NCBI GenBank assembly: GCA_945869825.1 | Contig: CAMBQF010000019.1 | Location: 1-33,332, forward strand | DNA length: 33,332 nucleotides | Reading direction: 5' to 3' | DNA from: Chitinophaga pinensis | GTDB lineage: Bacteria; Bacteroidota; Bacteroidia; CAMBQF01 | In this document: piece by piece, positions 1-26,458 of the stretch | Numbering within the stretch: position 1 is the stretch's first letter | Layout of the letters: every line of letters starts with the position of its first letter | The notes under the pieces: model-generated | Databases searched by the model: none | What the model saw: only the letters and a program-made list of their open reading frames with translations | What the model was told of the DNA's origin: nothing | Translations under genes and position numbers: made by a program

Positions 1-3000
1 GGCGAGTTTGTTGCTATGTTTATCGGGTTAAACGCTGGTGAACAGGTTGGTAATGGTATAGTTTGTCCCGGATCACCAGTTACAGTAAAGCCTTGCATGG
101 CCGATATTGCCATTACACCTGCGCCTGTATTTACCGGCTGACCTATGTAACGGAAACCGTTAGGGCTTGGTGGTATAAAGCGCTCTACCGATACTAAACC
201 GCTTAAGCTGCCGGTAAATCCGCTGCTAAAGTCGTTGATGTAGGCAGTTGACGAAGCACTTGATATAGTTTGCAGGTTACCATTGGTTGTTAACTGACCT
301 GCTCTTAGCTCTAGTGCAGTTGTTACTCTTACAACGTTACCACCGCTGGCTATAGTCAAGCCGTTGCTGTTGTTTGCCTGCAGGGTGCTGAATGTACCAC
401 CACCAGTTATGGTTTGCGCACCAGAAGTACCAGAGAAGATAGTTTTACCTGCGCCTGATACTATGGTAGAAGTTGTTCCTGTCCAGTTGCCTTTTACATC
501 TAAGGTATATCCTGCTGCTATTGAAATTGGCGCGCCTCCGGTTATTGATACATCTTTACATGCACCCATTGCTCCGCTTGATAGGACTGGATCGTTAGCT
601 AAGTTAGGTATAACAATGTCATCGCCAATTGTTGGCACCTGAGCTGGTGTCCAGTTGTTAGCATCGTTCCAGTCGGTACTTACTGAGCCATCCCATGTTA
701 ATGTACCGCAGTTATTAATTGCAACAGTAACAGCCTCAATATCTGTACAACCACCTACCGAGGTGGTCTTCTTGATATAGTAAGTGCCGCTGGTAGTTAT
801 AGCTGCCGGAGTCGATAATGCATTGGTATTATTTTGTGCATCCAACAGAGTTGGGAAATAATTTACAAAACCTGCTGTCGCGTTAATATCAGAATATACC
901 GATGGGCTAGTAATGTTAACCGTAGCCGGAGAACATACAGGTGCAGGGTTTGTAATTACAAGGTTTGGCACATTGCTTACTGTTACCACTACAGGCTCAA
1001 CATCAGAACATCCACCTGCGTCAGTGGTTTTCTTAATGTAGTAAGTACCGCTGGTGGCAATAGCATCAGGGTTACTCATGGCAATGTTAGCATTAGCATT
1101 AGCCAATGTTGTGTGGTAGCTAAGCGTACCTATTGTACCATTTTGGTCAAACACAACGCTACCAGATGTGATATCTACAGTGCCAGGATTACAAGCAGGT
1201 GCCGGATTTGTTATTACCAGGTTAGGCAATAAGCTTATATCTGCAACTACTAAATCATAATCGTAGCAACCACCAATGTTGGTTGTTTTCCTGATATAGT
1301 AAAAACCACTTACCGAAACAGCTGATGGGTTTAATATAGGGTTAATACCAGCATCAGCATCTGATGCTGAACTGTAATAACTTAATGAGCCTACTGTACC
1401 ATTAGCATCGGTAACTATGCCCGCGGCTGTTAAATCAACAGTAGCTGGTGCACATACCGTAGGTGGGTCTGCAATAACAAGGTCTGGCACAGGGTTAAAG
1501 CTTACAACAACGGCTTCAACATCGCTGCAACCGCCTGACGTGGCAGTTTTCTTAATATAATAAGTACCTGCAGTGGTTATTGCATTAGGGCTGGCCATGG
1601 CAATATTAGCATTTGCATTAGCCAAGGTTGTATGGTAGCTTAAAGTACCGGCCACATTATTAGTATCAACTGCAACACCTGCTACTGTAATATCTACAGT
1701 TCCACCAGAGCATCCTCCAGTAGGGGGTGTAATTACTAAGCTAGGTGCTGGGTTAACTGTCATTGTAATTGGGGTTACCGGCGTTGCGGTATTGTCAGCT
1801 ACTATACAGCCAGCGTTGCTGGTTAACTCTACAGTAACCGTATTGCCTGTAGCAAGGGTTGATGTTGCAAAAGTAGTCGATGCGCTGTTTTGTGCAGATA
1901 CACCGTTTACAAAAAACTCATAACCCGGGGTAGTACCACCATTGGTTGGGGTGGCGGTAAATGTTACGTTAGAACCAGAACAAACTGCACCTACTGGGCT
2001 TTGTACTAATGTTACACTTGGCACAATACCTTGTGCTATTTGGAAATCACCATCAGCAGTAATAGCAGATGCCGTTAAGTCTGTTGATGATGGTGTTGGT
2101 GTAACAGTCGGGTATGTCCAGCCAGAGTTGAACCTGCCCACAACCAAATCAGTAGCTGTAGGCGCGCCTATAAGTTCTGCTGCCGTGTAGTTAAATAATG
2201 CGCTGTAGTTAGTAGCCGTTACACCACCGTTTACAAGTTTCCAGTATTGGTTAACGTATTTAGTTGTGTTTAAACACGATGAACCAATATTGGGGTGTGC
2301 ACCAATAACTGCGCGTGCAGTATAGTTACCCGCACCCGAAACACCTGTAAACGATAACGAAACAGGAGTATAGTTGGTTAGGTTACCAACCTCAAAGTTT
2401 ACAGTTGGGCTACCTGCAATTACAGGTTTGCGTAAGTTGCCATACACCCAGCCGTTAGTTTGCAAAACGCTTCCTGCTGCACCAATTATTACATTGTCTG
2501 TAGCAAGGGTAGTAGTTTTTAAAATACCACTGGTTAAGTTAAGCACACCGTTTACAGTAACACCTGCATTGGTAATAGTAACACCACTGCTGTTGTTAAT
2601 AGTAAGGTTATTTACCGTTAGTGGCATACCGTTACCTGTAACCTGTGCGGCATTGTCTATATAAGTATAGTTAGCCGTTGTGCTATAGGTACGTGTGCCT
2701 GTGCTTCTTACGTTACCAGTATTACCAGTTGTAGTAATACCTGCAGCATCAGTAATACCGATAGTAGCTGTTGGGTCCAGGTTAAAGGCCGATGCTCCGG
2801 TGTTTAAAGAGTAGCGCGGTGTAATGCCGGTACCAAAGTTAAGTGTGGCACCGTTGGTAACATTCAATTGGTTTGATAGTGAAATATCGCTACTTACAAG
2901 GTTTACAGTAGTTCCTGCTCCATTAGCGGTAAACTTATCAAAAGTATACATTGATGTAGAGTTGGTAGACCGTGTACCTGAATAATGCTGGGTAAGGTCT

Positions 3001-6000
3001 ATCAGGTTTTTAACACCTGCACCCGCAGTGGTTGATGCTGCAAACAGGGTAAAGTTATCTACTGCAAAATCAGCAGCGCCTAAAGTATTAAAGCCATAGA
3101 ACCTGATTTTTACGTTAGGGTTATTGTTACACGACACAGGCAGAATTAGCGGGTCGGCAGGGAACTGCCATATACCCCAGTCTGTAGCAAACGATGCCAA
3201 TAAATTCCATGTGCTGCCACCGTCGGTGCTATAGTTTACACCAACATCTGGCCATAGCTGGAATAACAGGTAATCTTCGTAGTTACAATAAATATCAAAG
3301 TCGATAGAAAGGGTTTGCAAGCCCGAAGTATTCAGCGATACCTCAATATATTCGCTTGGGTTGGTAGTTGGTGTTGCAGAAGCATCAGGCAGGGTACCTG
3401 TTATAGCAGTACCTGCGGCACCGCCGTATACTGCTGCACCTGCGCCACCTTGCGATGTAAAGGCGCCGCCTGTTTTGGTAAATGCGTTGGCAGAGTTTAC
3501 TGATTGCTCTACTACGTTTTGGAATTGTGTGCGGTTAGCATTGTTTTCAAAATCATAATAAGCAACCGGTATACCTAATGGGTTTTCTACTACGCAAATA
3601 GTAAATGTTGGCGATGTTGACGCGCCTGCTGCGCTATCGTGCACACGCACATAGTATGTAACACCTATAGTAAGGCCACGGATAATTAACGATTCGGTAC
3701 CACCTGCACCAGTAGCGTTAGAACATGAATTGGCAACCGCTGTGTAGGTAGCGCTGCCCGGGCATGTACCACTTAGTGTATATACCTGCACAACAGCATT
3801 AAAGCCTGTTGAACCTACAACAGTTACTGTGTGGGCTGTGCTGGTTGCAACAAATGAATACCAAACATCATCATCGGCAGTGCCGGCACAACCTGCAGGC
3901 ACACCGTTTGTGCCTTGCGATGCTGTAGCCATTTGGGTTGTACCCACAACAGGGTTACACAAATCTGGCGATGCTAAAACAGTTGCATTACATGGGGCAT
4001 CGTTTGCCGGTGGCAATGCTATACATAAATCAAATTCAGAGTTTACTGCGCTACCTGCTGTAAATACACGCACCCAGTAAGTGCCTGCGGCCAAAGTGCC
4101 CAACAGGCCAGACTCGGCCGTATTACAGTAAATAGAGGTACCTCCGCACGATGTGCTGTAGAATTGTATCACCCTATCGGTATTGCCCGATACGTTGGTC
4201 ATACTATAACCTACACTGGTTGATGATGCTATTACAAATGAATACCAAACATCATCATCGGCAGTACCTGTACAAGGTGCCGCTACGCCAGATGCTGTAG
4301 CTGCGCCCGTGTTGGCGGTAACTGTGTTACAACCCGGTTGTAAAGTTGGGAAAGCAATAGCGCCCGCACAATCATCATTTGCCGGTGGCAACGCTAAACA
4401 CAACGTAAAGTTTGATGTTACTGCGGCACCTGCCGTGTAAACCCTAACCCAATAGGTATTTCCACCTACAAGGCCAGTTAAATTTCCTGTTTCGTTAGTG
4501 CTGCAATAAATGCTGCCTACACCACAAGAGCTGTTGTAAAACTCAATAACCCTATCGCTGTTGCCCGATATATCAGTCATAGAATAGGTAAGTGTGGTGT
4601 AGCCCACAGGCTCAACAAAAGAGTACCAAACGTCATCGTCGGCAGTGCCTGTACAGTTAGCTACTAAGCTTTGGGTAGCACCAATAGTATTAACATCTAC
4701 GTTAGTACAGCCCGGTGCCAGTGTTGGGAAATCTATTGCTCCGGCACAATCGTTATTAGCCGGTGGCAATGCTATACATAATGAGAATTGAGAACTAACG
4801 CCCGATGCAAAGGTATAAGCCCTTACATAATATGTAGCGCCTGGTGTTAAACCAGAAAGTACTCCTGTTTCAGGGTTGCTGCACAACAGGCTGGTTAAGC
4901 TGCCGCAGGTGCCACTGTAGAACTGAAGCACACGGTTAGTGTTTCCAGATATGTCTGTATTGGTAAATGATATAGAGGTAGAACCCGCAGGCATGGTAAA
5001 TGTAAACCACACATCATCGTCGGCAGTGCCAGCACAGCCTGCAACAGATTGTGTAGCCCCCCCGGTGTTAACGTTTACACTGGTACAGCCTGCACCAAGT
5101 GTACCAAAGGCAATTGCACCCGTACACTCATTGTTTATTGGCGATATTGTTAAGGTATTGCCGGTAGCTGTGCCGTTAACTGTAACGCTTGCTCCTACTG
5201 TTGTAGCACCTGCAATAAATGTATTGCCGCCCACCGCGTTGGTGGCCACGTTGCCAACAACTAAATAACGGCGTATGCCACTTACTCCGGTTTGTCCGGT
5301 TATGGTAAAGCTCATCAAAGCGCTTAAGCTTTGGGGCGTAGATACTTGTACATCGCCACCATCCCAGGTGCCGCTGTTGTTAGCATCATAAAAAACCCTA
5401 ATGCTGGTTATGTCTGATGATAATGCGCTTCCGCTGTTGTTAACGGTTAACGATGTAAAATCGTATGATGTTAACGAGCAAACAGGGGTAAGTGCAAAGC
5501 CATGCAACACTGTATTGGTAGTACCTGCCGCTATAAAACCTGTAGCCGGCGTGCCGGTGTTGGTTAGGTCTAAGCTTGCCACAGGCCCTGTTACAGCTAT
5601 ATTAAATGTTCCTCCTATATAATCATAGTCTTGCACTAATATATAATAAGTAACACCTGCTGTAAATGTTGCCGTTACGGTTTCTGTAGAGGTAGATGTT
5701 GTTGTAGCCTGTGCAAAAATAGTACCCGGGTAAGAGCCTGGGCACGATGGGCCTGCATACACACGTATGTCAAGGTCTTTTACCGGGCTTGGGCCGCTGG
5801 TAGTTATGGTATGGCTGCCAGTAGCACAAGGGGTAAACTTATACCAAACATCATTACCACCAGTAGAACCAAATGTTTCTGTAGCGTTGGTGGTAGTGCC
5901 TGAAATAGCAGGCGCGCCAACGGTTAAGTTAATTGCGTCTGCACAATCATCGTTAACTGGCGGATTTACTAAACAAATAGTAAAACCATCATTATCAGAG

Positions 6001-8699
6001 CCTCCATTGTATTCAAAAACCCTTACATAATAAACCCCGCCTACAATTAAACCCGTTAAGGCTACAGATTCTGTTCCGCCACATGCTGTAGCGTCAATAC
6101 AACCCAGGCTGGTTAGCGTAGGCGATGGGCAAGAGCCTGTTGATGAGAAAAATTGCACTTCAGGATCGTACCCTACACTACCAAATAATGCATCGCAAAA
6201 CAATGGAGAGCCTCCCAAACCGTCAACAATAACTATAGCCGACGATTGTGTAGCGGTAAATTTATACCAGACATCATCATCGGGGTTGCCGGTACAACTG
6301 TTGGGCACTGCCGATGCAGTTGCTGATGTTGTCCAGGTATTAGTAATTGGAGAACAACTTGCTCCGCCTGTTAATGTTACAGCACTACAAGGGTTATCAT
6401 TAAGTACAACCCTTGTGCCGGCAGGGTTGGTAGCCGTTGGGGTGCGTGGTGTACCGCCTACGGTGCACGATGTTATTTGTGCATCAACAACGTTGCCAAT
6501 GGTTGCCCCTGCGGCTATATCATACGCCAGCCAAAAATGGTTGGTTCCGTTAGCCAGTGCCTGTGTACCGGTTATGCTGTAGGTACCGTTAGGGTTAGCC
6601 TGTGCAGCACCAAATGGCGTTGCGGTAGAAAATGTTCCGGTATTACCGGTGTAGTACAACCTGGCGTTGGTTAAGTTTGCCGCATTGGTTGTGCCTGTTG
6701 TATTAAAGGTAATTGAGGTACAGTTTAATGGTGATATTGCGCCCGACATTACCACCTGTAAATTCACAATTGCGTAGTTGGTGCCGCTTGGCTCTACAGC
6801 TGCTGTAGATGCCTGCGCAACCGTGCACGAAGTAAACGATTGGTTTACCGCCGTTATATTTTGCAAAGTTGTAGTACGGTTTGTATTGGCAGTGCCACAG
6901 GCGGCATTAGTATTATAATGTATAAAATAAGTGCCTCCGGCAGTACCTGTCCATGTTAAAGGTGTTTGCCCAAAGGCCACCTGTGGGCCATTAAAGGTGC
7001 CAGACCTAACGGTAATATAAGCGCTGGCCAAATTCATTGTAGAAACAAAAGTATGGCCCGCCGTAACACCTGTTATCTGGTTATACTCTCCTTCATATTG
7101 ATCTGTAGCTATTTGTGTTGTATTGCCCGGTGCAGGTGCTGCTACTGCTGCGGTGGGATATAGGCCACCCACCGGATTTGTACAACCACAAGGCGCATTT
7201 AGTGTTGTAAAAGTATATGCCGTGGGGCAAGTAGCTGTAGCGCAGTTGTTTTTAGGCACTACCCTCCAATAATATTGTGTGTTGGCTGCTAAAGCACCTG
7301 TAATGTACGAAGTACCTGCCTGGTTACTGCTAACCAATGGTGGGTTTGCTGCTGTTCCAAAATAAACATCGTATAATGTGGCGCCTGCAACAGCCGTCCA
7401 AGCTACAGAGCTTACTGCACCATTGCCTGCGTAGCAAACCCCGGTGGCATTGTTTGCAGGTGTTATACCTGCCGATGTACAAGGAAGTGTAGCGCTATTT
7501 ATAGTTACCGACGGAGAAGTATAAACAACATTACCCGGGCCGCCGCCGTTAGTATTATTCGCAAACCAGAAGTTACCTTCATTTACAACGTCAAATGTAA
7601 TGTTATTAGAACCCGCTGCAGGGGCAGTCATAGCAAACGTGTAGGTTTGTTGTGCCCCCGGGGCTAAACCACCAGCATCTACCCTAACAAGGTAATCAGG
7701 GTCTCCGTTCCATTTACAACCTATATTAATGTCGGGAGATGCATTAGTCCAGGTACTAGTGCCTGAATTTCTAACCGTAACAGTAACGTTTTGTGTTTGG
7801 CCTGCACACCACGATGATGGCACACTCGCAGATACCCATTGCGACTGCCAGGCAGGGGGAGCTGGCGGGCAGGTTAATCGAAAGTTTATATTTCCCGCAA
7901 TATTAGTTTCGGGATCTAAAAGAAAGTAATATTGAACACCTGCGGTAAGCGGTATGTTAACGTTACCGTTAGAGCCATTATTTTGCTGGATATCGTCTAT
8001 ATATGTCCAACCTGTTATGCCGCATCCACCAGAAGCCGCTTTGTAATAATAATCAATATAAGTAGTAGTAGTACCTGATACATGGGTTGATACTATATTA
8101 TAGTTACCCGTTTGCGTAGGGGTAAATGAATATATTTTTTCCTGTCCGGGTGTTGCATACGCAAAACCCTGCGTTTGCATATTCCAAGCACTTCTATCGG
8201 CAGCAAATACAGCTGAAGTATTAGTATTACAGGCTGAGATATTGGTTATAGTTTCACAAGGATTAATATAAAAATACCTAACCCGCGCTGCTGCACTTAG
8301 AGTATTACAAGAAAACCTTGTTAATAAAATAGAGTAATTGCCTGAAGTTGGACATAACCATGAAATTTTAGACTGCGAACCGCAAAAATCATCATCTTGA
8401 ACTAATAGAGTTCCGCCAGTAGTTGCACTATAAAGCCTTAGGTATGTATCGTTCGACGATAACCCACAAGTTTCAAAAACATACGTGCGCCCTGCAGTAG
8501 CGGCAAAATTAAACGCCCTTCTTCCTGAATTGTAAGAGGTTGTTAATTGTGGGGTTGTAGTAACTGTAATTGCAGTGTTATTTGCAGCCGCACCACAATA
8601 CTGTGCGCTTGCATTTTGTACAAATGCAAAAAGCACAAACAATAGCATAATACTTCTGTATGCTTTTGCTGTTTTTAATAAATTGTAAAAATTACTCAT
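1..8699 (-). CDS. Giant secreted multidomain adhesin-like protein (3' end outside window)
   Basis: Reading the minus strand from the ATG at 8699 gives about 2,899 codons without a stop to the left edge, so the C-terminus is missing. Residues 1-32 look like a signal peptide (hydrophobic MLLFVLFAFVQNASA, cut before QYC). In order I see N-terminal beta domains with a DDDFCGSQ stretch, an NBR1/Ig-like segment (about 280-395), an FnIII-like segment (about 407-498), two BNR-associated-like segments (about 652-765 and 1037-1183), six modules with a DVWYxF core (about 810, 950, 1227, 1355, 1482, 1610), a jelly-roll-like region (about 1707-1893), and four Ig-like GxYYIxKT modules (about 2310-2660). 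Last comes a WDGSVSTDWNDANNWTP segment and a GFRYIGQPV motif, both common shortly before T9SS sorting domains. Inference: a cell-surface or secreted adhesin exported by Sec and probably T9SS. No enzyme motif is seen. The start could instead be the internal Met18. Confidence 0.9.
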   Translation of the reverse strand, partial: MSNFYNLLKTAKAYRSIMLLFVLFAFVQNASAQYCGAAANNTAITVTTTPQLTTSYNSGRRAFNFAATAGRTYVFETCGLSSNDTYLRLYSATTGGTLLVQDDDFCGSQSKISWLCPTSGNYSILLTRFSCNTLSAAARVRYFYINPCETITNISACNTNTSAVFAADRSAWNMQTQGFAYATPGQEKIYSFTPTQTGNYNIVSTHVSGTTTTYIDYYYKAASGGCGITGWTYIDDIQQNNGSNGNVNIPLTAGVQYYFLLDPETNIAGNINFRLTCPPAPPAWQSQWVSASVPSSWCAGQTQNVTVTVRNSGTSTWTNASPDINIGCKWNGDPDYLVRVDAGGLAPGAQQTYTFAMTAPAAGSNNITFDVVNEGNFWFANNTNGGGPGNVVYTSPSVTINSATLPCTSAGITPANNATGVCYAGNGAVSSVAWTAVAGATLYDVYFGTAANPPLVSSNQAGTSYITGALAANTQYYWRVVPKNNCATATCPTAYTFTTLNAPCGCTNPVGGLYPTAAVAAPAPGNTTQIATDQYEGEYNQITGVTAGHTFVSTMNLASAYITVRSGTFNGPQVAFGQTPLTWTGTAGGTYFIHYNTNAACGTANTNRTTTLQNITAVNQSFTSCTVAQASTAAVEPSGTNYAIVNLQVVMSGAISPLNCTSITFNTTGTTNAANLTNARLYYTGNTGTFSTATPFGAAQANPNGTYSITGTQALANGTNHFWLAYDIAAGATIGNVVDAQITSCTVGGTPRTPTATNPAGTRVVLNDNPCSAVTLTGGASCSPITNTWTTSATASAVPNSCTGNPDDDVWYKFTATQSSAIVIVDGLGGSPLFCDALFGSVGYDPEVQFFSSTGSCPSPTLTSLGCIDATACGGTESVALTGLIVGGVYYVRVFEYNGGSDNDGFTICLVNPPVNDDCADAINLTVGAPAISGTTTNATETFGSTGGNDVWYKFTPCATGSHTITTSGPSPVKDLDIRVYAGPSCPGSYPGTIFAQATTTSTSTETVTATFTAGVTYYILVQDYDYIGGTFNIAVTGPVASLDLTNTGTPATGFIAAGTTNTVLHGFALTPVCSLTSYDFTSLTVNNSGSALSSDITSIRVFYDANNSGTWDGGDVQVSTPQSLSALMSFTITGQTGVSGIRRYLVVGNVATNAVGGNTFIAGATTVGASVTVNGTATGNTLTISPINNECTGAIAFGTLGAGCTSVNVNTGGATQSVAGCAGTADDDVWFTFTMPAGSTSISFTNTDISGNTNRVLQFYSGTCGSLTSLLCSNPETGVLSGLTPGATYYVRAYTFASGVSSQFSLCIALPPANNDCAGAIDFPTLAPGCTNVDVNTIGATQSLVANCTGTADDDVWYSFVEPVGYTTLTYSMTDISGNSDRVIEFYNSSCGVGSIYCSTNETGNLTGLVGGNTYWVRVYTAGAAVTSNFTLCLALPPANDDCAGAIAFPTLQPGCNTVTANTGAATASGVAAPCTGTADDDVWYSFVIASSTSVGYSMTNVSGNTDRVIQFYSTSCGGTSIYCNTAESGLLGTLAAGTYWVRVFTAGSAVNSEFDLCIALPPANDAPCNATVLASPDLCNPVVGTTQMATASQGTNGVPAGCAGTADDDVWYSFVATSTAHTVTVVGSTGFNAVVQVYTLSGTCPGSATYTAVANSCSNATGAGGTESLIIRGLTIGVTYYVRVHDSAAGASTSPTFTICVVENPLGIPVAYYDFENNANRTQFQNVVEQSVNSANAFTKTGGAFTSQGGAGAAVYGGAAGTAITGTLPDASATPTTNPSEYIEVSLNTSGLQTLSIDFDIYCNYEDYLLFQLWPDVGVNYSTDGGSTWNLLASFATDWGIWQFPADPLILPVSCNNNPNVKIRFYGFNTLGAADFAVDNFTLFAASTTAGAGVKNLIDLTQHYSGTRSTNSTSMYTFDKFTANGAGTTVNLVSSDISLSNQLNVTNGATLNFGTGITPRYSLNTGASAFNLDPTATIGITDAAGITTTGNTGNVRSTGTRTYSTTANYTYIDNAAQVTGNGMPLTVNNLTINNSSGVTITNAGVTVNGVLNLTSGILKTTTLATDNVIIGAAGSVLQTNGWVYGNLRKPVIAGSPTVNFEVGNLTNYTPVSLSFTGVSGAGNYTARAVIGAHPNIGSSCLNTTKYVNQYWKLVNGGVTATNYSALFNYTAAELIGAPTATDLVVGRFNSGWTYPTVTPTPSSTDLTASAITADGDFQIAQGIVPSVTLVQSPVGAVCSGSNVTFTATPTNGGTTPGYEFFVNGVSAQNSASTTFATSTLATGNTVTVELTSNAGCIVADNTATPVTPITMTVNPAPSLVITPPTGGCSGGTVDITVAGVAVDTNNVAGTLSYHTTLANANANIAMASPNAITTAGTYYIKKTATSGGCSDVEAVVVSFNPVPDLVIADPPTVCAPATVDLTAAGIVTDANGTVGSLSYYSSASDADAGINPILNPSAVSVSGFYYIRKTTNIGGCYDYDLVVADISLLPNLVITNPAPACNPGTVDITSGSVVFDQNGTIGTLSYHTTLANANANIAMSNPDAIATSGTYYIKKTTDAGGCSDVEPVVVTVSNVPNLVITNPAPVCSPATVNITSPSVYSDINATAGFVNYFPTLLDAQNNTNALSTPAAITTSGTYYIKKTTSVGGCTDIEAVTVAINNCGTLTWDGSVSTDWNDANNWTPAQVPTIGDDIVIPNLANDPVLSSGAMGACKDVSITGGAPISIAAGYTLDVKGNWTGTTSTIVSGAGKTIFSGTSGAQTITGGGTFSTLQANNSNGLTIASGGNVVRVTTALELRAGQLTTNGNLQTISSASSTAYINDFSSGFTGSLSGLVSVERFIPPSPNGFRYIGQPVNTGAGVMAISAMQGFTVTGDPGQTIPLPTCSPAFNPINIATNS
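715..1770 (-). repeat. Four tandem Ig-like GTYYIKKT modules within the adhesin
   Basis: The unit is about 260 bases (86-87 residues). The repeated core GTYYIKKT, followed by GGCxD, lies on the plus strand near 1551, 1290, 1032 and 772. Units one and three share the block LSYHTTLANANANIAM almost base for base, whereas units two and four are divergent. Confidence 0.8.
3590..5143 (-). repeat. Four tandem DVWYxF modules within the adhesin
   Basis: The coding repeat has a period of about 380-384 bases (127-128 residues). Each unit starts with a CAGAI-like motif, has a core TADDDVWxxF (plus-strand positions near 3872, 4256, 4636 and 5020) and ends with TYYVRVxT followed by a LPPAN linker. The fourth unit (3590-3970) has a longer second half. 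Two more divergent copies lie upstream near 5850 and 6268. The fold resembles PPC-type beta-sandwich modules; this is inferred from the pattern only. Confidence 0.8.
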
Positions 8700-21125: not shown

Positions 21126-21133
21126 CAAAGATA
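21126..21133 (-). promoter_or_regulatory. -7 promoter box for icd paralog 2
   Basis: TATCTTTG on the minus strand ends 24 bases before the ATG at 21101. The palindrome at 21148-21168 covers the place where its -33 element would lie. Confidence 0.6.
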
Positions 21134-21147
21134 GTAAATATATTTCA

Positions 21148-21168
21148 AATAATAGTATTACTATTATT
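21148..21168. promoter_or_regulatory. Candidate TetR operator (10-1-10 palindrome)
   Basis: AATAATAGTA at 21148-21157 is the exact reverse complement of TACTATTATT at 21159-21168, with one central base. It sits between the divergent icd2 and tetR promoters, as TetR-family operators usually do. A half-site, AATAATAG, recurs at 21211-21218 just before the tetR ATG. The local base composition is AT-rich, so chance is a concern. Confidence 0.5.
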
Positions 21169-21192
21169 AATTTTATTTTTAAACATATTTGC

Positions 21193-21200
21193 TATATTTG
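21193..21200 (+). promoter_or_regulatory. -7 promoter box for the tetR-exporter operon
   Basis: TATATTTG matches TAnnTTTG and ends 20 bases before the ATG at 21221. It is the same octamer and spacing as before the collagen-like gene. Confidence 0.6.
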
Positions 21201-21220
21201 TGCTTTTATAAATAATAGCA

Positions 21221-21925
21221 ATGGAAATACAGCTGCGGATAAGAATGAACGAAAAGATTTACCTGCGCAACCCGGAGGAATCTGCTCTGGGTAAAAACAT
21301 TGTGCGCAATGGTCTTTTGCTTATAAACAAAATAGGCTTTGAAGAGTTTACGTTCAAAAAACTAGCTAAAGAAATAAATACAACAGAAGCTAGTATATAC
21401 CGTTATTTTGAAAACAAACACCGCCTGTTGCTATATATTATAAACTGGTATTGGAGTATTTTAGAGTACAAAGTGGTATATAACCTACATAACATAACAA
21501 ACCCCGAAGTAAAACTAAAGCGCATAGTGGAACTGCTTGCAATACCCGAAGAAGACAACACTAACGACTTTATAAGCGAACGCGAAGCTTATAAACTGGT
21601 AATGTGGGAGGGTTCTAAAACCTATTTAACACGCAATGTGGCAAGCGATAATAACGACAAGCTTTTTAAGCCATACAAAGATATTTGCGGCAGGTTTTCT
21701 GCTATTATTTCAGAGTACAACCCTGATTATAAATACCCTTACTCACTGGCAAGTACTATACTTGAAATGTCGCACATGCAAAAATTTTTCATGAGCAACC
21801 TGCCCTCATTAACTGATTTTGGAAATGAAAAAAACGACAAAAAGCTAATTGATTTTTTAGAACAACTGTTGTTTGATTCACTAAACAAGCCCACACAGAC
21901 AAAAACCAGAAAAAACAATAAATAA
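21221..21925 (+). CDS. TetR/AcrR-family transcriptional regulator
   Basis: 234 residues. The N-terminal DNA-binding domain shows FTFKKLAKEINTTEASIYRY (residues 43-62), a clear TetR helix-turn-helix followed by FENKHRLLLY. The remainder is an all-helical ligand-binding and dimerisation domain with no recognisable ligand motif, and a Lys/Asn-rich tail. An alternative start is Met9. It is the first gene of the exporter operon, 13 bases before the ABC gene, and divergent from icd paralog 2. By analogy with the family it probably represses its own operon, with the inducer likely related to the exported compound. The palindrome at 21148-21168 is the likely binding site. Confidence 0.92.
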   Translation: MEIQLRIRMNEKIYLRNPEESALGKNIVRNGLLLINKIGFEEFTFKKLAKEINTTEASIYRYFENKHRLLLYIINWYWSILEYKVVYNLHNITNPEVKLKRIVELLAIPEEDNTNDFISEREAYKLVMWEGSKTYLTRNVASDNNDKLFKPYKDICGRFSAIISEYNPDYKYPYSLASTILEMSHMQKFFMSNLPSLTDFGNEKNDKKLIDFLEQLLFDSLNKPTQTKTRKNNK

Positions 21926-21938
21926 CCTAAGCAACTAT

Positions 21939-23699
21939 ATGAAAGAAGGTAATCATAACTCCTTTGGTGATAAAAGCGTAACAGAAAAAATAACACCTGT
22001 TTTGCGCTTTTTACTGTACATAAAATCGGAGAAAAAAGATATTTGGATTATTTATATATACAGCATAATTGTAGGCCTTATTGGCTTATCGCTTCCACTT
22101 GGCATGCAAGCCGTAATACAAATGATATCAGGCGGTGAATTGTATGACACAGCGATAGTGATAATTATACTTGTGTTACTGGGCGTTGCTGCAACCGGAG
22201 GCTTACAGCTTATGCAAATTTATATGGTTGAGGTTTTACAACGCAGGCTTTTTGCCAAGGCTACATTTGATTTTGCATACAGGTTGCCCAGAATAAAAGC
22301 TGATGAGTTAATAGGTAGCTATCCGCCCGAAATTGTAAACCGCTTTTTTGATGTGATTTTATTACAAAAAGGTATATCAAAAATATTAATTGAGCTAACA
22401 ACAGCCGTATTACAAGTGTTTTTTGGCTTGCTTTTATTAGCAATATACCATCCAACATTTGTTATAATAGATATTTTATTTATTACACTTTTGTATTTAG
22501 GATTTAAGAGTACTGGCAAAAAGGGGTTAGAAACAAGCCTTAAAGAATCTTCTTACAAATATAAAATGATTAGCTGGCTGCAAGATATTGCACGCAACCT
22601 TAATACATTTAAACTTAATGGCAGCGACAGCCAACTTGTACAAGAAAAAACCGACGATTATACAGTAAAATATATAACTGCCAGAAAAAGCCACTTTAAA
22701 GTTTTACTATCACATTATGTAAACATCTTACTTTTCAAAATTTTCATAATAGCAGATACACTAATTATAGGCTCTTTACTGGTTGTTGAAAGGGAAATAA
22801 ACCTGGGCCAGTTTGTAGCATCAGAAATTATTATAGTATTAATTCTAAGCTCTATTGAAAAATTAATTATTAGCGTTGATACGGTATATGACGCATTTAC
22901 ATCGGCAGAAAAAGCAGCAAAAATAAGCGATTATACCTTAGAGGTAAGCGGCAACATAAAATCACAAGATTATGCAACAGCTAATGGATATAATATAACA
23001 TTAAAAGAACTAAACTACAAAAGTTATATTGCCGATAATATTTTGAAAAATGTCACCTTAACAATTCCGGCAGGCAAAACAGTTGTTATAGCTGGCAACA
23101 ACGGTTACGGTGTAGAGGCTTTAATAAATATTATATCAGGTATATATACAAATTACAAAGGAACTGCCGAAGTAGATGGTTTGGCAATAAAAGATGTAGA
23201 ATTAAACAGCTATAGGGGCTTAATTGCCCATAGCCTAACTGCCGATAACTTTTTTGAAGGCACTATATTAGAAAATATCACCTTAGGAAACTCTCAAATA
23301 TCTGAAATTGAAGTTATAAAAACCCTGAATAAATTAGGGGTGTATGATACTATTACAAACTTAACAGACGGTATACACCACAAATTTTTGCCAGGTGGCG
23401 TTGGGCTTCCGACAGAATTGAACAATAAAATAAACATAGCCCGCAATGTGCTAAAAAATCCTAAGTTGTGGATTGTGCATGAGCATTTAATAGGCGATTT
23501 AGAAATAGCGCAGCATTTGTTTAAAGAAAAACTAAACAACACAACTATTTTATTAATTGGCAATAATGTATCTACACATAAAAAAGCTGCTATTATTTAC
23601 CTTTTGGAAAATGGGGAGATAACTGCCCGTGGAAATTTTGACGAGCTACAAAATAATGAGTGGTATAAAAAAATAATAAACCCTATACATAATGCTTAA
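21939..23699 (+). CDS. ABC exporter half-molecule (permease plus degenerate nucleotide-binding domain)
   Basis: 586 residues. Residues about 35-315 contain the hydrophobic segments of a type I exporter membrane domain; there is no N-terminal C39 peptidase domain. Residues about 350-580 align with an ABC ATPase domain by order and spacing, but the catalytic motifs are lost. Walker A is GNNGYGVEA (386-394), with Val and Glu for Lys and Ser/Thr. The signature position is LPTEL (490-494) instead of LSGGQ. Walker B is LWIVHEHL (510-517), with His514 for Asp although Glu515 remains. The H-switch is IGNNVST (540-546), with Asn542 for His. No Q-loop Gln is visible. The frame is open and keeps the fold landmarks, so it looks like a functional pseudo-ATPase rather than a dead gene. 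The stop overlaps the next start by 8 bases. Confidence 0.9.
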   Translation: MKEGNHNSFGDKSVTEKITPVLRFLLYIKSEKKDIWIIYIYSIIVGLIGLSLPLGMQAVIQMISGGELYDTAIVIIILVLLGVAATGGLQLMQIYMVEVLQRRLFAKATFDFAYRLPRIKADELIGSYPPEIVNRFFDVILLQKGISKILIELTTAVLQVFFGLLLLAIYHPTFVIIDILFITLLYLGFKSTGKKGLETSLKESSYKYKMISWLQDIARNLNTFKLNGSDSQLVQEKTDDYTVKYITARKSHFKVLLSHYVNILLFKIFIIADTLIIGSLLVVEREINLGQFVASEIIIVLILSSIEKLIISVDTVYDAFTSAEKAAKISDYTLEVSGNIKSQDYATANGYNITLKELNYKSYIADNILKNVTLTIPAGKTVVIAGNNGYGVEALINIISGIYTNYKGTAEVDGLAIKDVELNSYRGLIAHSLTADNFFEGTILENITLGNSQISEIEVIKTLNKLGVYDTITNLTDGIHHKFLPGGVGLPTELNNKINIARNVLKNPKLWIVHEHLIGDLEIAQHLFKEKLNNTTILLIGNNVSTHKKAAIIYLLENGEITARGNFDELQNNEWYKKIINPIHNA

Positions 23700-25038
23700 C
23701 CTATCAGAAAATAAATTGGGGCAACATGTAATAGCGCTACAAAAAAAATCGCTGTCGCTGCAAATGGTTGATACGCCCAAAAGCGGAAAAAAACTTAGCC
23801 GTGTGCTATTATTTTTGTTCATAGCCTTAGTAATTTTAATGTTTATACCCTGGCAACAAAATATTAATGGCAAAGGCCAGCTCACCGCGTTGGCTCCGTC
23901 AGAAAGGCCACAAACATTGCAGTCACCTATTGGGGGGCGAATAGAAAAATGGTATAAGCAAGAGGGCGATTATGTTAAAAAAGGAGACACCATTATTACC
24001 ATTTCAGAGATTAAAGAAAAATACTTAGACCCTGATATTTTAAAACGATTAAACGAACAATTAGATTTTAAAAAGAGGAGTATTGATGCCAACCAAAATA
24101 AAGCTATTTCATACACCAAACAAATTGATGCACTAACAAAATCTCGCGATTATAAATTGCAACAGGCTACAAATAAAATAAAGCAGGCAAAACTTAAAGT
24201 TCAGTCAGACAGTATAGAGCTGGTAGCAACCAAAGTGCAATACGCAATTGCCGATACACAGTTTACCCGCTCTACCACACTGTTTAAAAAGGGCGTACTT
24301 TCTTTAACAAGCTACGAAAACAGAAAACGCAGCTTTAATGATGCCTTAGCCAAACTGCTATCGCAAGAAAATAAGTTGCTTGACGCTAAAAATGGTTACT
24401 TAAATGCAGTAATAGAGCAAAGCAGCATAACGGCAGACTATGGCGAAAAAATATCTAAGGCCGAAAGCGAATTGAATGGCACAACGGCATATATAGGAGA
24501 ATCGCAAGGCGATTTATCGAAGTTGCAAAACGAGTACACCAGCACCGCAATACGCAGTGGCTTTTACATTATACGGGCACCACAAGATGGGTATTTAGTT
24601 AAAGCTATAAAAGCCGGTATAGGAGAAAACATTAAGGAGAGCGAGGCGATAGCCACTATTATGCCCAATAACCCAAAATTGGCAGTTGAGCTATTTGTAA
24701 AGCCTATTGATGTGGTTTTACTAAAAAAAGGCACCAAAGTAAGGCTGCAATTTGATGGTTGGCCTGCGCTTGTATTCTCGGGCTGGCCGGGTACATCTAC
24801 AGGTACATTTGGCGGTATAGTAAAGGTGATAGATTATGTTGATAGTAAAAATGGCCAATACCGTGTTTTAGTAGTTCCAGACCCTGAAGAAGAAAACTGG
24901 CCACAGCAAATACGTGTGGGGACCAATGTTTATGGTTGGGGCTTGTTAAATAAAGTACCCGTTTGGTATGAAATTTGGCGTAAACTCAATGGCTTTCCGC
25001 CCGACCTAATTACAAACGATGAACAACCTAAAAAATAA
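23692..25038 (+). CDS. HlyD-type periplasmic adaptor (membrane fusion protein)
   Basis: 448 residues. A cytoplasmic N-terminus of about 36 residues is followed by one membrane segment (37-53). Then come the first lipoyl half (SPIGGRIEKWYKQEGDYVKKGDTI, about 78-101), a long helical hairpin (about 110-285), the second lipoyl half (293-324) and beta-barrel domains including FDGWPALVFSGWPG. The protein should bridge the ABC permease in the inner membrane and the TolC channel. The N-terminal anchor makes it HlyD-like rather than a lipoprotein adaptor such as AcrA. The start overlaps the ABC stop by 8 bases, implying translational coupling and a shared complex. The ATG 7 bases after its stop begins the TolC gene. 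Confidence 0.93.
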   Translation: MLNLSENKLGQHVIALQKKSLSLQMVDTPKSGKKLSRVLLFLFIALVILMFIPWQQNINGKGQLTALAPSERPQTLQSPIGGRIEKWYKQEGDYVKKGDTIITISEIKEKYLDPDILKRLNEQLDFKKRSIDANQNKAISYTKQIDALTKSRDYKLQQATNKIKQAKLKVQSDSIELVATKVQYAIADTQFTRSTTLFKKGVLSLTSYENRKRSFNDALAKLLSQENKLLDAKNGYLNAVIEQSSITADYGEKISKAESELNGTTAYIGESQGDLSKLQNEYTSTAIRSGFYIIRAPQDGYLVKAIKAGIGENIKESEAIATIMPNNPKLAVELFVKPIDVVLLKKGTKVRLQFDGWPALVFSGWPGTSTGTFGGIVKVIDYVDSKNGQYRVLVVPDPEEENWPQQIRVGTNVYGWGLLNKVPVWYEIWRKLNGFPPDLITNDEQPKK

Positions 25039-25045
25039 ACGATAA

Positions 25046-26458
25046 ATGAAGAGGCTCCTATCGCTTATTTTATTGGTATCAATAACTATACAGGCTAATG
25101 CACAAACCGGCTCTTTTACCATTGCCGATTTGTATAAAAATGTGGTGCTTAACCATCCGCTTATTATGCAGGCCAATCTGGTGCAAGATGCCGCCGACTG
25201 GGATGTACGCATAGCCCGCGGTGGTTTCGACCCTGTATTTGCAACAGATTATAGCAACAAAATATTTAGCCCCGATGGTAACAGCCAAAAACTGTATTGG
25301 GACCAAATATATACAGGCCTAAAAGTACCTACATGGTTTGGTGCCGACTTTAACTTTAGCTATCAAAACGCTGCTGGTCAATATATAGACAATGAGCTTA
25401 CTGTGCCACAGGGCGGGCTTTACACCGCAGGTATAAGCATACCAATTGGCCAGGGCTTGCTTATTGATAGCCGCAGGGCAGCTTTAAGGCAAGCACAACT
25501 ATATATTACCATTGCAGGGGCCGAAAGGCAAAAGCTTGTAAACAAAACGCTGCTTACCATTACAAAAGACTATTGGGATTGGTATTACAGTTACCAAAAA
25601 CTGAGGTATACAGAGCGTATTTATAAACTTGCCAAAGATCGGTATTTGTTTGTTGCTGATAATGTTAAAAATGGCGAAGAAGCCCCTATTGATTCTGTGG
25701 AAGCCCATTTTAACTATATACAACGCGAACAGCTTTACCTGCAAGCTGGTGTAGACTTTAAAAACTCGGGGCTTAGCCTTTCTACTCACCTATGGAAAGA
25801 TGGTAACACCCCGCTTGAAATTGACACTACCCTTCTTCCATCAGAAATTGGCACAGAAACAGATACCCTGCTGGTGTTTAAAATGAAGAATCTTATAGAC
25901 TCTGCCACCATTACCCACCCCGATATTGTTAAACTTGATTTTAAGCTAAAGCAATTAGGTATTGACAAACGCTTATCTATAGAAAACCTTAGGCCTCGCA
26001 TAAATGTGAATTATAATTTTTTAAGTAGCAACAACTTTGGCAGCAATAGTTTTGGCCCTGTTTTCAGAGATAATTACAAATCGGGTGTAGAGGTGTATTT
26101 TCCTTTGTTTTTGCGCAAAGAGCGTGGAAAGCTTAACATGATTAAAAACAAAATAACACAAACAAACCTTGAGCTTGATTTTACTGCACGCGACAATAAA
26201 AACAGCCTGCTGGCAGCTTTTAACGACTTGTTGTTATTCGAAAAATTGGTAAAAACCCAGCTAAGCCTGGTAGACAACCTTCAACAGCTATACGATGCTG
26301 AAATGCTAAAATTCAGCAATGGCGAAACAACCTTATTTGTTATAAACATGCGCGAAACAAATTTGATAAACGGGCAAATAAAACTAGCCGAACTAAAGGC
26401 AAAGTACGCCGTATCAAAAGCTAATATTAAATGGATTGCCGGCTTGCGTAGTTGGTAA
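25046..26458 (+). CDS. TolC-family outer-membrane efflux channel
   Basis: 470 residues with a signal peptide (MKRLLSLILLVSITIQANA, cut before QTGSF). The body has the alternating long helices and strands of TolC: the NHPLIMQANL repeat start, ITKDYWDWYYSYQ and VADNVKNGEEAPIDSVEA in the first half, and the related ITHPDIVKLDFKLKQLGI, YFPLFLRKERGKLN and FSNGETTLFVINMRETNLI in the second. It forms the trimeric outer-membrane duct of the exporter encoded just upstream and is the last gene of the tetR operon. A 17-bp terminator follows 16 bases after the stop. Confidence 0.93.
   Translation: MKRLLSLILLVSITIQANAQTGSFTIADLYKNVVLNHPLIMQANLVQDAADWDVRIARGGFDPVFATDYSNKIFSPDGNSQKLYWDQIYTGLKVPTWFGADFNFSYQNAAGQYIDNELTVPQGGLYTAGISIPIGQGLLIDSRRAALRQAQLYITIAGAERQKLVNKTLLTITKDYWDWYYSYQKLRYTERIYKLAKDRYLFVADNVKNGEEAPIDSVEAHFNYIQREQLYLQAGVDFKNSGLSLSTHLWKDGNTPLEIDTTLLPSEIGTETDTLLVFKMKNLIDSATITHPDIVKLDFKLKQLGIDKRLSIENLRPRINVNYNFLSSNNFGSNSFGPVFRDNYKSGVEVYFPLFLRKERGKLNMIKNKITQTNLELDFTARDNKNSLLAAFNDLLLFEKLVKTQLSLVDNLQQLYDAEMLKFSNGETTLFVINMRETNLINGQIKLAELKAKYAVSKANIKWIAGLRSW

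Follow-up and report, generated by a model that had tools for sequence, protein, structure and literature searches.

ABC exporters are defined by the hydrolysis of ATP at their nucleotide-binding domain (NBD). PCAT1 and ComA are ATPases with canonical motifs, and the heterodimeric exporters TM287/288, BmrCD and TmrAB, in which one NBD is degenerate, retain the signature that completes the active site of the partner. EmrAB-TolC is a tripartite system that pairs an adaptor with an inner-membrane protein needing no ATPase. Whether the membrane domain of an exporter can work without its motor has hitherto been approached via truncated LmrA and MsbA: their laboratory-truncated membrane domains show ethidium transport that is proton-coupled, and Glu314 in transmembrane helix 6 (TM6) of LmrA is needed for proton-coupled transport (PMC4979069, PMC6155054). 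The common bacterial family described here is a natural experiment on the same question. No published description of it was found in full-text literature outside most subscription papers and bioRxiv preprints, and within that scope the earlier suggestion that the exporter is undescribed holds.

The window, i.e., the whole stretch of 33,332 nucleotides that was analysed, is contig C19 of a 2.98 Mb draft genome assigned to Chitinophaga pinensis. ORFs and Pfam matches confirm the order tetR-ABC-hlyD-tolC (Table 1) put forward in the original prediction, and also that no second ATPase is encoded in the operon. As in the relatives described below, an exporter, a HlyD adaptor and a TolC channel are thus encoded together, as in type 1 secretion; the HlyD protein matches the NCBIfam type_I_hlyD model at E 1.6e-22, which is under the cut-off of the model. 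The gap between tetR and the ABC gene is 13 nt and the start of hlyD overlaps the ABC gene by 8 nt, and this spacing, together with the shared direction of the four genes, fits a single operon. A 24-nt inverted repeat before tetR (21126-21149/21177-21200, 83% complementary) is a possible TetR operator, and the candidate promoter TATATTTG resembles the consensus of the Bacteroidota -7 element. At the other end of the window the minus strand carries an ORF of at least 2899 aa (3-8699) that runs off the contig end and holds many repeated modules; with its apparent Sec-type signal peptide it probably encodes a giant secreted or surface protein, and nothing found here connects it with the exporter.

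Table 1. Features of the exporter locus, in window positions.
Feature	Position	Strand	Basis
Intergenic region before tetR, AT-rich, many overlapping repeats	21129..21220	+	
Candidate promoter TATATTTG	21193-21200	+	likeness to Bacteroidota -7 element
TetR-family regulator, first operon gene	21221..21925	+	Pfam TetR_N E 9.9e-9; intact ORF
Degenerate ABC exporter half-molecule, 586 aa	21939..23699	+	Pfam; alignments to solved exporters; intact ORF
Exporter transmembrane domain (TMD), residues about 17-330	21987..22928	+	conserved residues
Degenerate NBD, residues about 345-580	22971..23678	+	ABC_tran E 1e-11; dN/dS 0.079
Former Walker A, GNNGYGVEA G386-A394 (Lys to Val392, Ser/Thr to Glu393)	23094..23120	+	alignment, pattern check
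Former signature LPTEL 490-494	23406..23420	+	alignment, pattern check
Former Walker B LWIV-H514-E515 (510-515)	23466..23483	+	alignment, pattern check
Former H-switch, Asn542	23562..23564	+	alignment, pattern check
HlyD-family periplasmic adaptor	23692..25038	+	Pfam HlyD_3 E 5.7e-13; intact ORF
TolC-like outer membrane channel	25046..26458	+	Pfam OEP E 1.3e-28; intact ORF

The ABC protein has both domains of a type IV exporter and matches solved exporters end to end. Its ABC_membrane match is barely above the Pfam cut-off (28.3 against 28 bits) and its ABC_tran match scores 46 bits; profile A3 of the family likewise aligns end to end with solved exporters, PCAT1 included. The catalytic motifs that belong to this fold, i.e., Walker A Lys, LSGGQ, Walker B Asp-Glu and H-switch His, were located by alignment to four canonical exporters of the same genome and by pattern checks. 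Every change listed in the original prediction is present in an intact frame, and Glu515 is all that is left of the catalytic set; the Q-loop Gln is replaced by Thr434 and the D-loop Asp is also gone. A pattern check found no other P-loop, hhhhDE or SGGQ motif anywhere in the protein, so that intact motifs do not lie elsewhere in the chain. A structure predicted from a two-sequence alignment had a mean pLDDT of 32. Judged from the sequence, the system lacks the ATP-hydrolysing inner-membrane subunit of type 1 secretion, and the proposal that a pseudo-ATPase exporter works coupled with HlyD and TolC is supported.

Homologs of the window protein (query P0001) were found in 180 of 395 sampled Bacteroidia genomes (E <= 1e-60). 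A second sample, drawn from across the phylum, had them in 76 of 296 genomes (E <= 1e-50). A scan of genome contigs gave one locus only, and a scan of viral contigs gave no relatives. The first labelled set of 92 loci comprised the window, its close relative L006 and 90 loci from the class search, and of 23 further loci three came from plasmid records and 20 from genomes of other Bacteroidota classes; statements on motifs cover the loci read, a subset of the 180 genomes with a homolog. The order ABC-hlyD-tolC held in nearly all loci inspected, the exceptions being L113 and L200, in which only the ABC gene was recognised, L187, in which tolC was not recognised, and loci at contig ends. Among the 80 Bacteroidia homologs that bear an NBD none has LSGGQ: signature position 2 is Pro in 39 and Ser in 30, and position 4 is Ser in 50. 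The Walker B Asp is kept in 30/80, the Glu at the catalytic position in 17/80 and the H-switch His in 8/80. The Walker A Lys, absent from the window protein, is kept in 64/80, and most Bacteroidia homologs may for this reason bind ATP; total loss of the Lys is a trait of the window genus and a few other lineages. The orthologs thus carry degenerate motifs with the same neighbours. SGGQ matches in L073, L086 and L096 were rejected as signatures as they are sited near the first membrane helix.

A TetR-like ORF is the commonest neighbour (45 loci). The tally of neighbours gave no recurring ATPase family and, apart from TetR, no recurrent fourth operon gene, a substrate gene included. An ABC-like gene upstream in the f91 loci was considered as a partner and proved to be UvrA. 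Many homologs (L069, L074, L190 and others) have an N-terminal domain of about 150-240 aa where HlyB has its C39-like domain. It was suspected to be C39-like, and a profile built from ten of these matched nothing significant in the PDB; the window protein has no C39 or C39-like domain at its N-terminus. Two members of one family from small genomes (L178 and L179, f43) sit on a very long branch of 2.9 changes per column and have kept Walker A. On plasmid-typed records, relatives followed by HlyD and TolC genes occur in Riemerella anatipestifer (WP_004920602.1) and Aureibacter tunicatorum (WP_309940528.1). Both are annotated as 'ABC transporter ATP-binding protein', a label that should be read with caution in this family. 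The 102 kb plasmid-typed record of the Riemerella anatipestifer locus L184 has the operon amid the housekeeping genes rsmI, murB and rplU.

In nine genomes, some of them assembled in one to four contigs, the exporter is a protein of 332-339 aa that ends after the TMD and is followed directly by hlyD, so that only the TMD part of an ABC exporter is present. The stop codon of the short gene overlaps the hlyD start by 8 nt in seven of the nine, as in the window, and the gap is 34 or 66 nt in the other two; therefore no NBD is hidden between the two genes. In each of six of these genomes searched with ABC_membrane, the NBD-less protein was the sole match in so short a frame. The nine proteins form one clade with support 100 in a TMD tree, and the NBD was thus lost once in this sample. 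The same tree, a quick one without bootstraps, places sixteen relatives from other Bacteroidota classes on one side of a branch with an SH-aLRT of 97, and 4 of the 20 other-class loci within the Bacteroidia part. Most of the sixteen keep Walker A, the Walker B Asp-Glu and the H-switch His, and their signatures are already altered (LSTGQ, LPGGL and ISFGM among them). ATPase function thus seems to have been lost long ago and step by step, inside a conserved operon. If the tree is rooted on the sixteen, which is an assumption, the signature was altered first and the catalytic residues later, and the Walker A Lys was replaced on six or more occasions.

The TMD is conserved to a greater degree. Mean pairwise identity is 48% for the TMD and 29% for the NBD, the NBD being lower in 99.6% of 3160 pairs; in canonical exporters of the window genome and family f3 the NBD is the more conserved domain in all pairs compared but one. 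Conserved residues specific to the family are E98, NRFFD134-138, K144, H171, K207-Y208, R249, E296, E307-K308, D318 and K325. All nine NBD-less proteins keep E98, K144, E296, an acid at 307 (Glu or Asp), K308, D318 and K325, and NRFFD134-138, K207-Y208 and R249 also persist in them, with Glu at 138 in one. Other-class relatives whose NBDs are better preserved have the same conserved TM6 carboxylates, which are therefore no mark of ion-driven members.

Recent decay of the window gene into a non-functional copy is very improbable. Its 97%-identical relative L006, from a pond MAG labelled 'Bacteroidetes bacterium', has the same residues at the degenerate motifs, and dN/dS between the two is about 0.05 for the TMD and about 0.08 for the NBD (one pair, with seven NBD substitutions), i.e., purifying selection acts on both domains in this close pair. 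As the NBD is moreover degenerate throughout the family, the degeneracy is conserved beyond chance. A recent local decay had been named beforehand as one outcome that would overturn the prediction, to be seen in relatives with the same neighbours and normal motifs; the other, intact motifs at another place in the protein, was looked for above and not found. Other Bacteroidota classes do contain such relatives, in which Walker A, Walker B and the H-switch are all intact; they are however a separate clade, and the decay within the class is old and class-wide, with the operon conserved. In favour of decay, the frame of a 59%-identical ortholog (L068, in the single-contig assembly G001) is broken near its N-terminus, but the neighbouring gltX and tetR genes are split in the same assembly, which suggests sequencing or assembly error, and the in-frame stop was set aside as a sign of pseudogenisation. 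It is also improbable, though less so, that the NBDs still bind ATP and hydrolyse it slowly with substituted residues, such as an E-D order in Walker B or the LPxS signature that recurs, most of the family then being slow ATPases. The retained Walker A Lys, the recurring Ser at signature position 4 and the purifying selection on the NBD are in line with such activity. It fits poorly with the window protein, which lacks the Lys, the Ser/Thr and the Walker B Asp, it is impossible for the NBD-less members, and replacement of the H-switch His alone leaves HlyB (H662A) with <0.1% activity (PMC9751043).

A more serious, if still somewhat unlikely, alternative is that an unlinked canonical ABC half-transporter, e.g., of the L002 type (G000:C29), energises the complex in trans. 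It would do so either as a heterodimer or as active dimers placed beside pseudo-dimers around a HlyD ring, on the pattern of HlyB, three dimers of which assemble with six HlyD (PMC9751043). The window genome has four canonical exporters, and in four f3 loci (L069, L070, L071 and L072) an L002-type exporter lies directly upstream on the same strand, at a gap of 89-178 nt in three and 1351 nt in the fourth. The L002 type also co-occurs with the system above expectation (136/44 vs 135/80, Fisher p 0.007, uncorrected for relatedness). This linkage is however seen in f3 only, no second half-transporter being encoded alongside in the window, and the L002 type is missing from 44 of the 180 genomes with the system and from 3 of the 9 with NBD-less members (at E 1e-150, which may miss diverged copies). 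A classical heterodimer, as originally proposed, is moreover unlikely because the degenerate subunit must give LSGGQ to the Walker A/B of its partner, and the chain that has lost Walker B has lost its signature too (it reads LPTEL in the window protein, and not one of the 80 homologs has LSGGQ). Neither composite site would be canonical, one joining the dead Walker A/B to the LSGGQ of the partner and the other the Walker A/B of the partner to LPTEL, and the NBD-less members point the same way. Slightly less probable again is that the inner-membrane protein acts as a scaffold or a passive gate, the HlyD-TolC conduit exporting periplasmic substrates or working down a gradient without energy. The persistence of NBD-less forms with HlyD and TolC, the conservation of TMD, HlyD and TolC and the absence of an energising neighbour are what a scaffold would lead one to expect. 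Against it, the conservation of the TMD takes in TM6, which lines the substrate cavity in exporters, as well as the coupling-helix segments, neither of which a plain anchor would seem to need.

From the comparisons of sequence it is likely that exporters of the window type no longer depend on ATP hydrolysis by their own NBD, and the pump is probably powered in some other way. The system is best read as a tripartite, type-1-secretion-like exporter, with an inner-membrane exporter under TetR control, a HlyD adaptor and a TolC channel. The TMD, presumably a homodimer, would still form the gate into the HlyD-TolC conduit, and in the window genome the NBD would persist as a vestigial module with a structural role, docked to the coupling helices. 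Energy would come from elsewhere, or none would be needed. An ion-motive force coupled via the conserved TM6 carboxylates E296 and E307 seems the likeliest source, ahead of a partner ATPase in trans and of a passive or scaffold role, and is put forward tentatively, at somewhat less than an even chance, with the truncated LmrA and MsbA membrane domains as a precedent. It is equally tentative, yet tempting, to speculate that evolution in this family has converted an ABC exporter, within a HlyD-TolC conduit, into an ATP-independent transporter driven by an ion gradient. The preserved intermediates would then run from an altered signature through loss of the catalytic residues and of Walker A to loss of the whole NBD in one clade. 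The TetR regulator suggests that the substrate may be a small toxic or amphipathic compound.

Compared with type 1 secretion (HlyB-HlyD-TolC, PrtD, LssB), the system has the same gene order of exporter, adaptor and channel, the same exporter fold and an adaptor of the HlyD type, and the NCBIfam LssB, PrtD and HlyB models match the window protein at E values of about 1e-28 to 1e-27, far under their curated cut-offs. Unlike type 1 secretion, the family lacks functional ATPase motifs, has lost the NBD in one clade and has no recurring substrate gene, and no match identified the N-terminal domain of its long forms as C39-like. Residues 21-570 of the window protein align full-length to the solved PCAT1 (6v9z), profile A3 does so to the solved ComA (8hf7), and a model of NHLP bacteriocin exporters matches the window protein under its cut-off at E 2.7e-41; the window protein differs from PCAT1 and ComA in having no peptidase domain. 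With TM287/288, BmrCD and TmrAB it shares a degenerate NBD on an exporter half-molecule, but in the family the signature and Walker B are lost jointly, the window encodes no partner for it and the NBD is missing from some members. The isolated membrane domains LmrA-MD and MsbA-MD resemble the NBD-less members in being exporter TMDs without an NBD, in LmrA with an acidic residue in TM6. They are however artificial truncations outside a tripartite system, and the ion coupling reported for them is only putative in the window family. EmrAB-TolC is likewise tripartite with an adaptor, but EmrB is an MFS transporter, whereas the window protein has a TMD of the ABC type.
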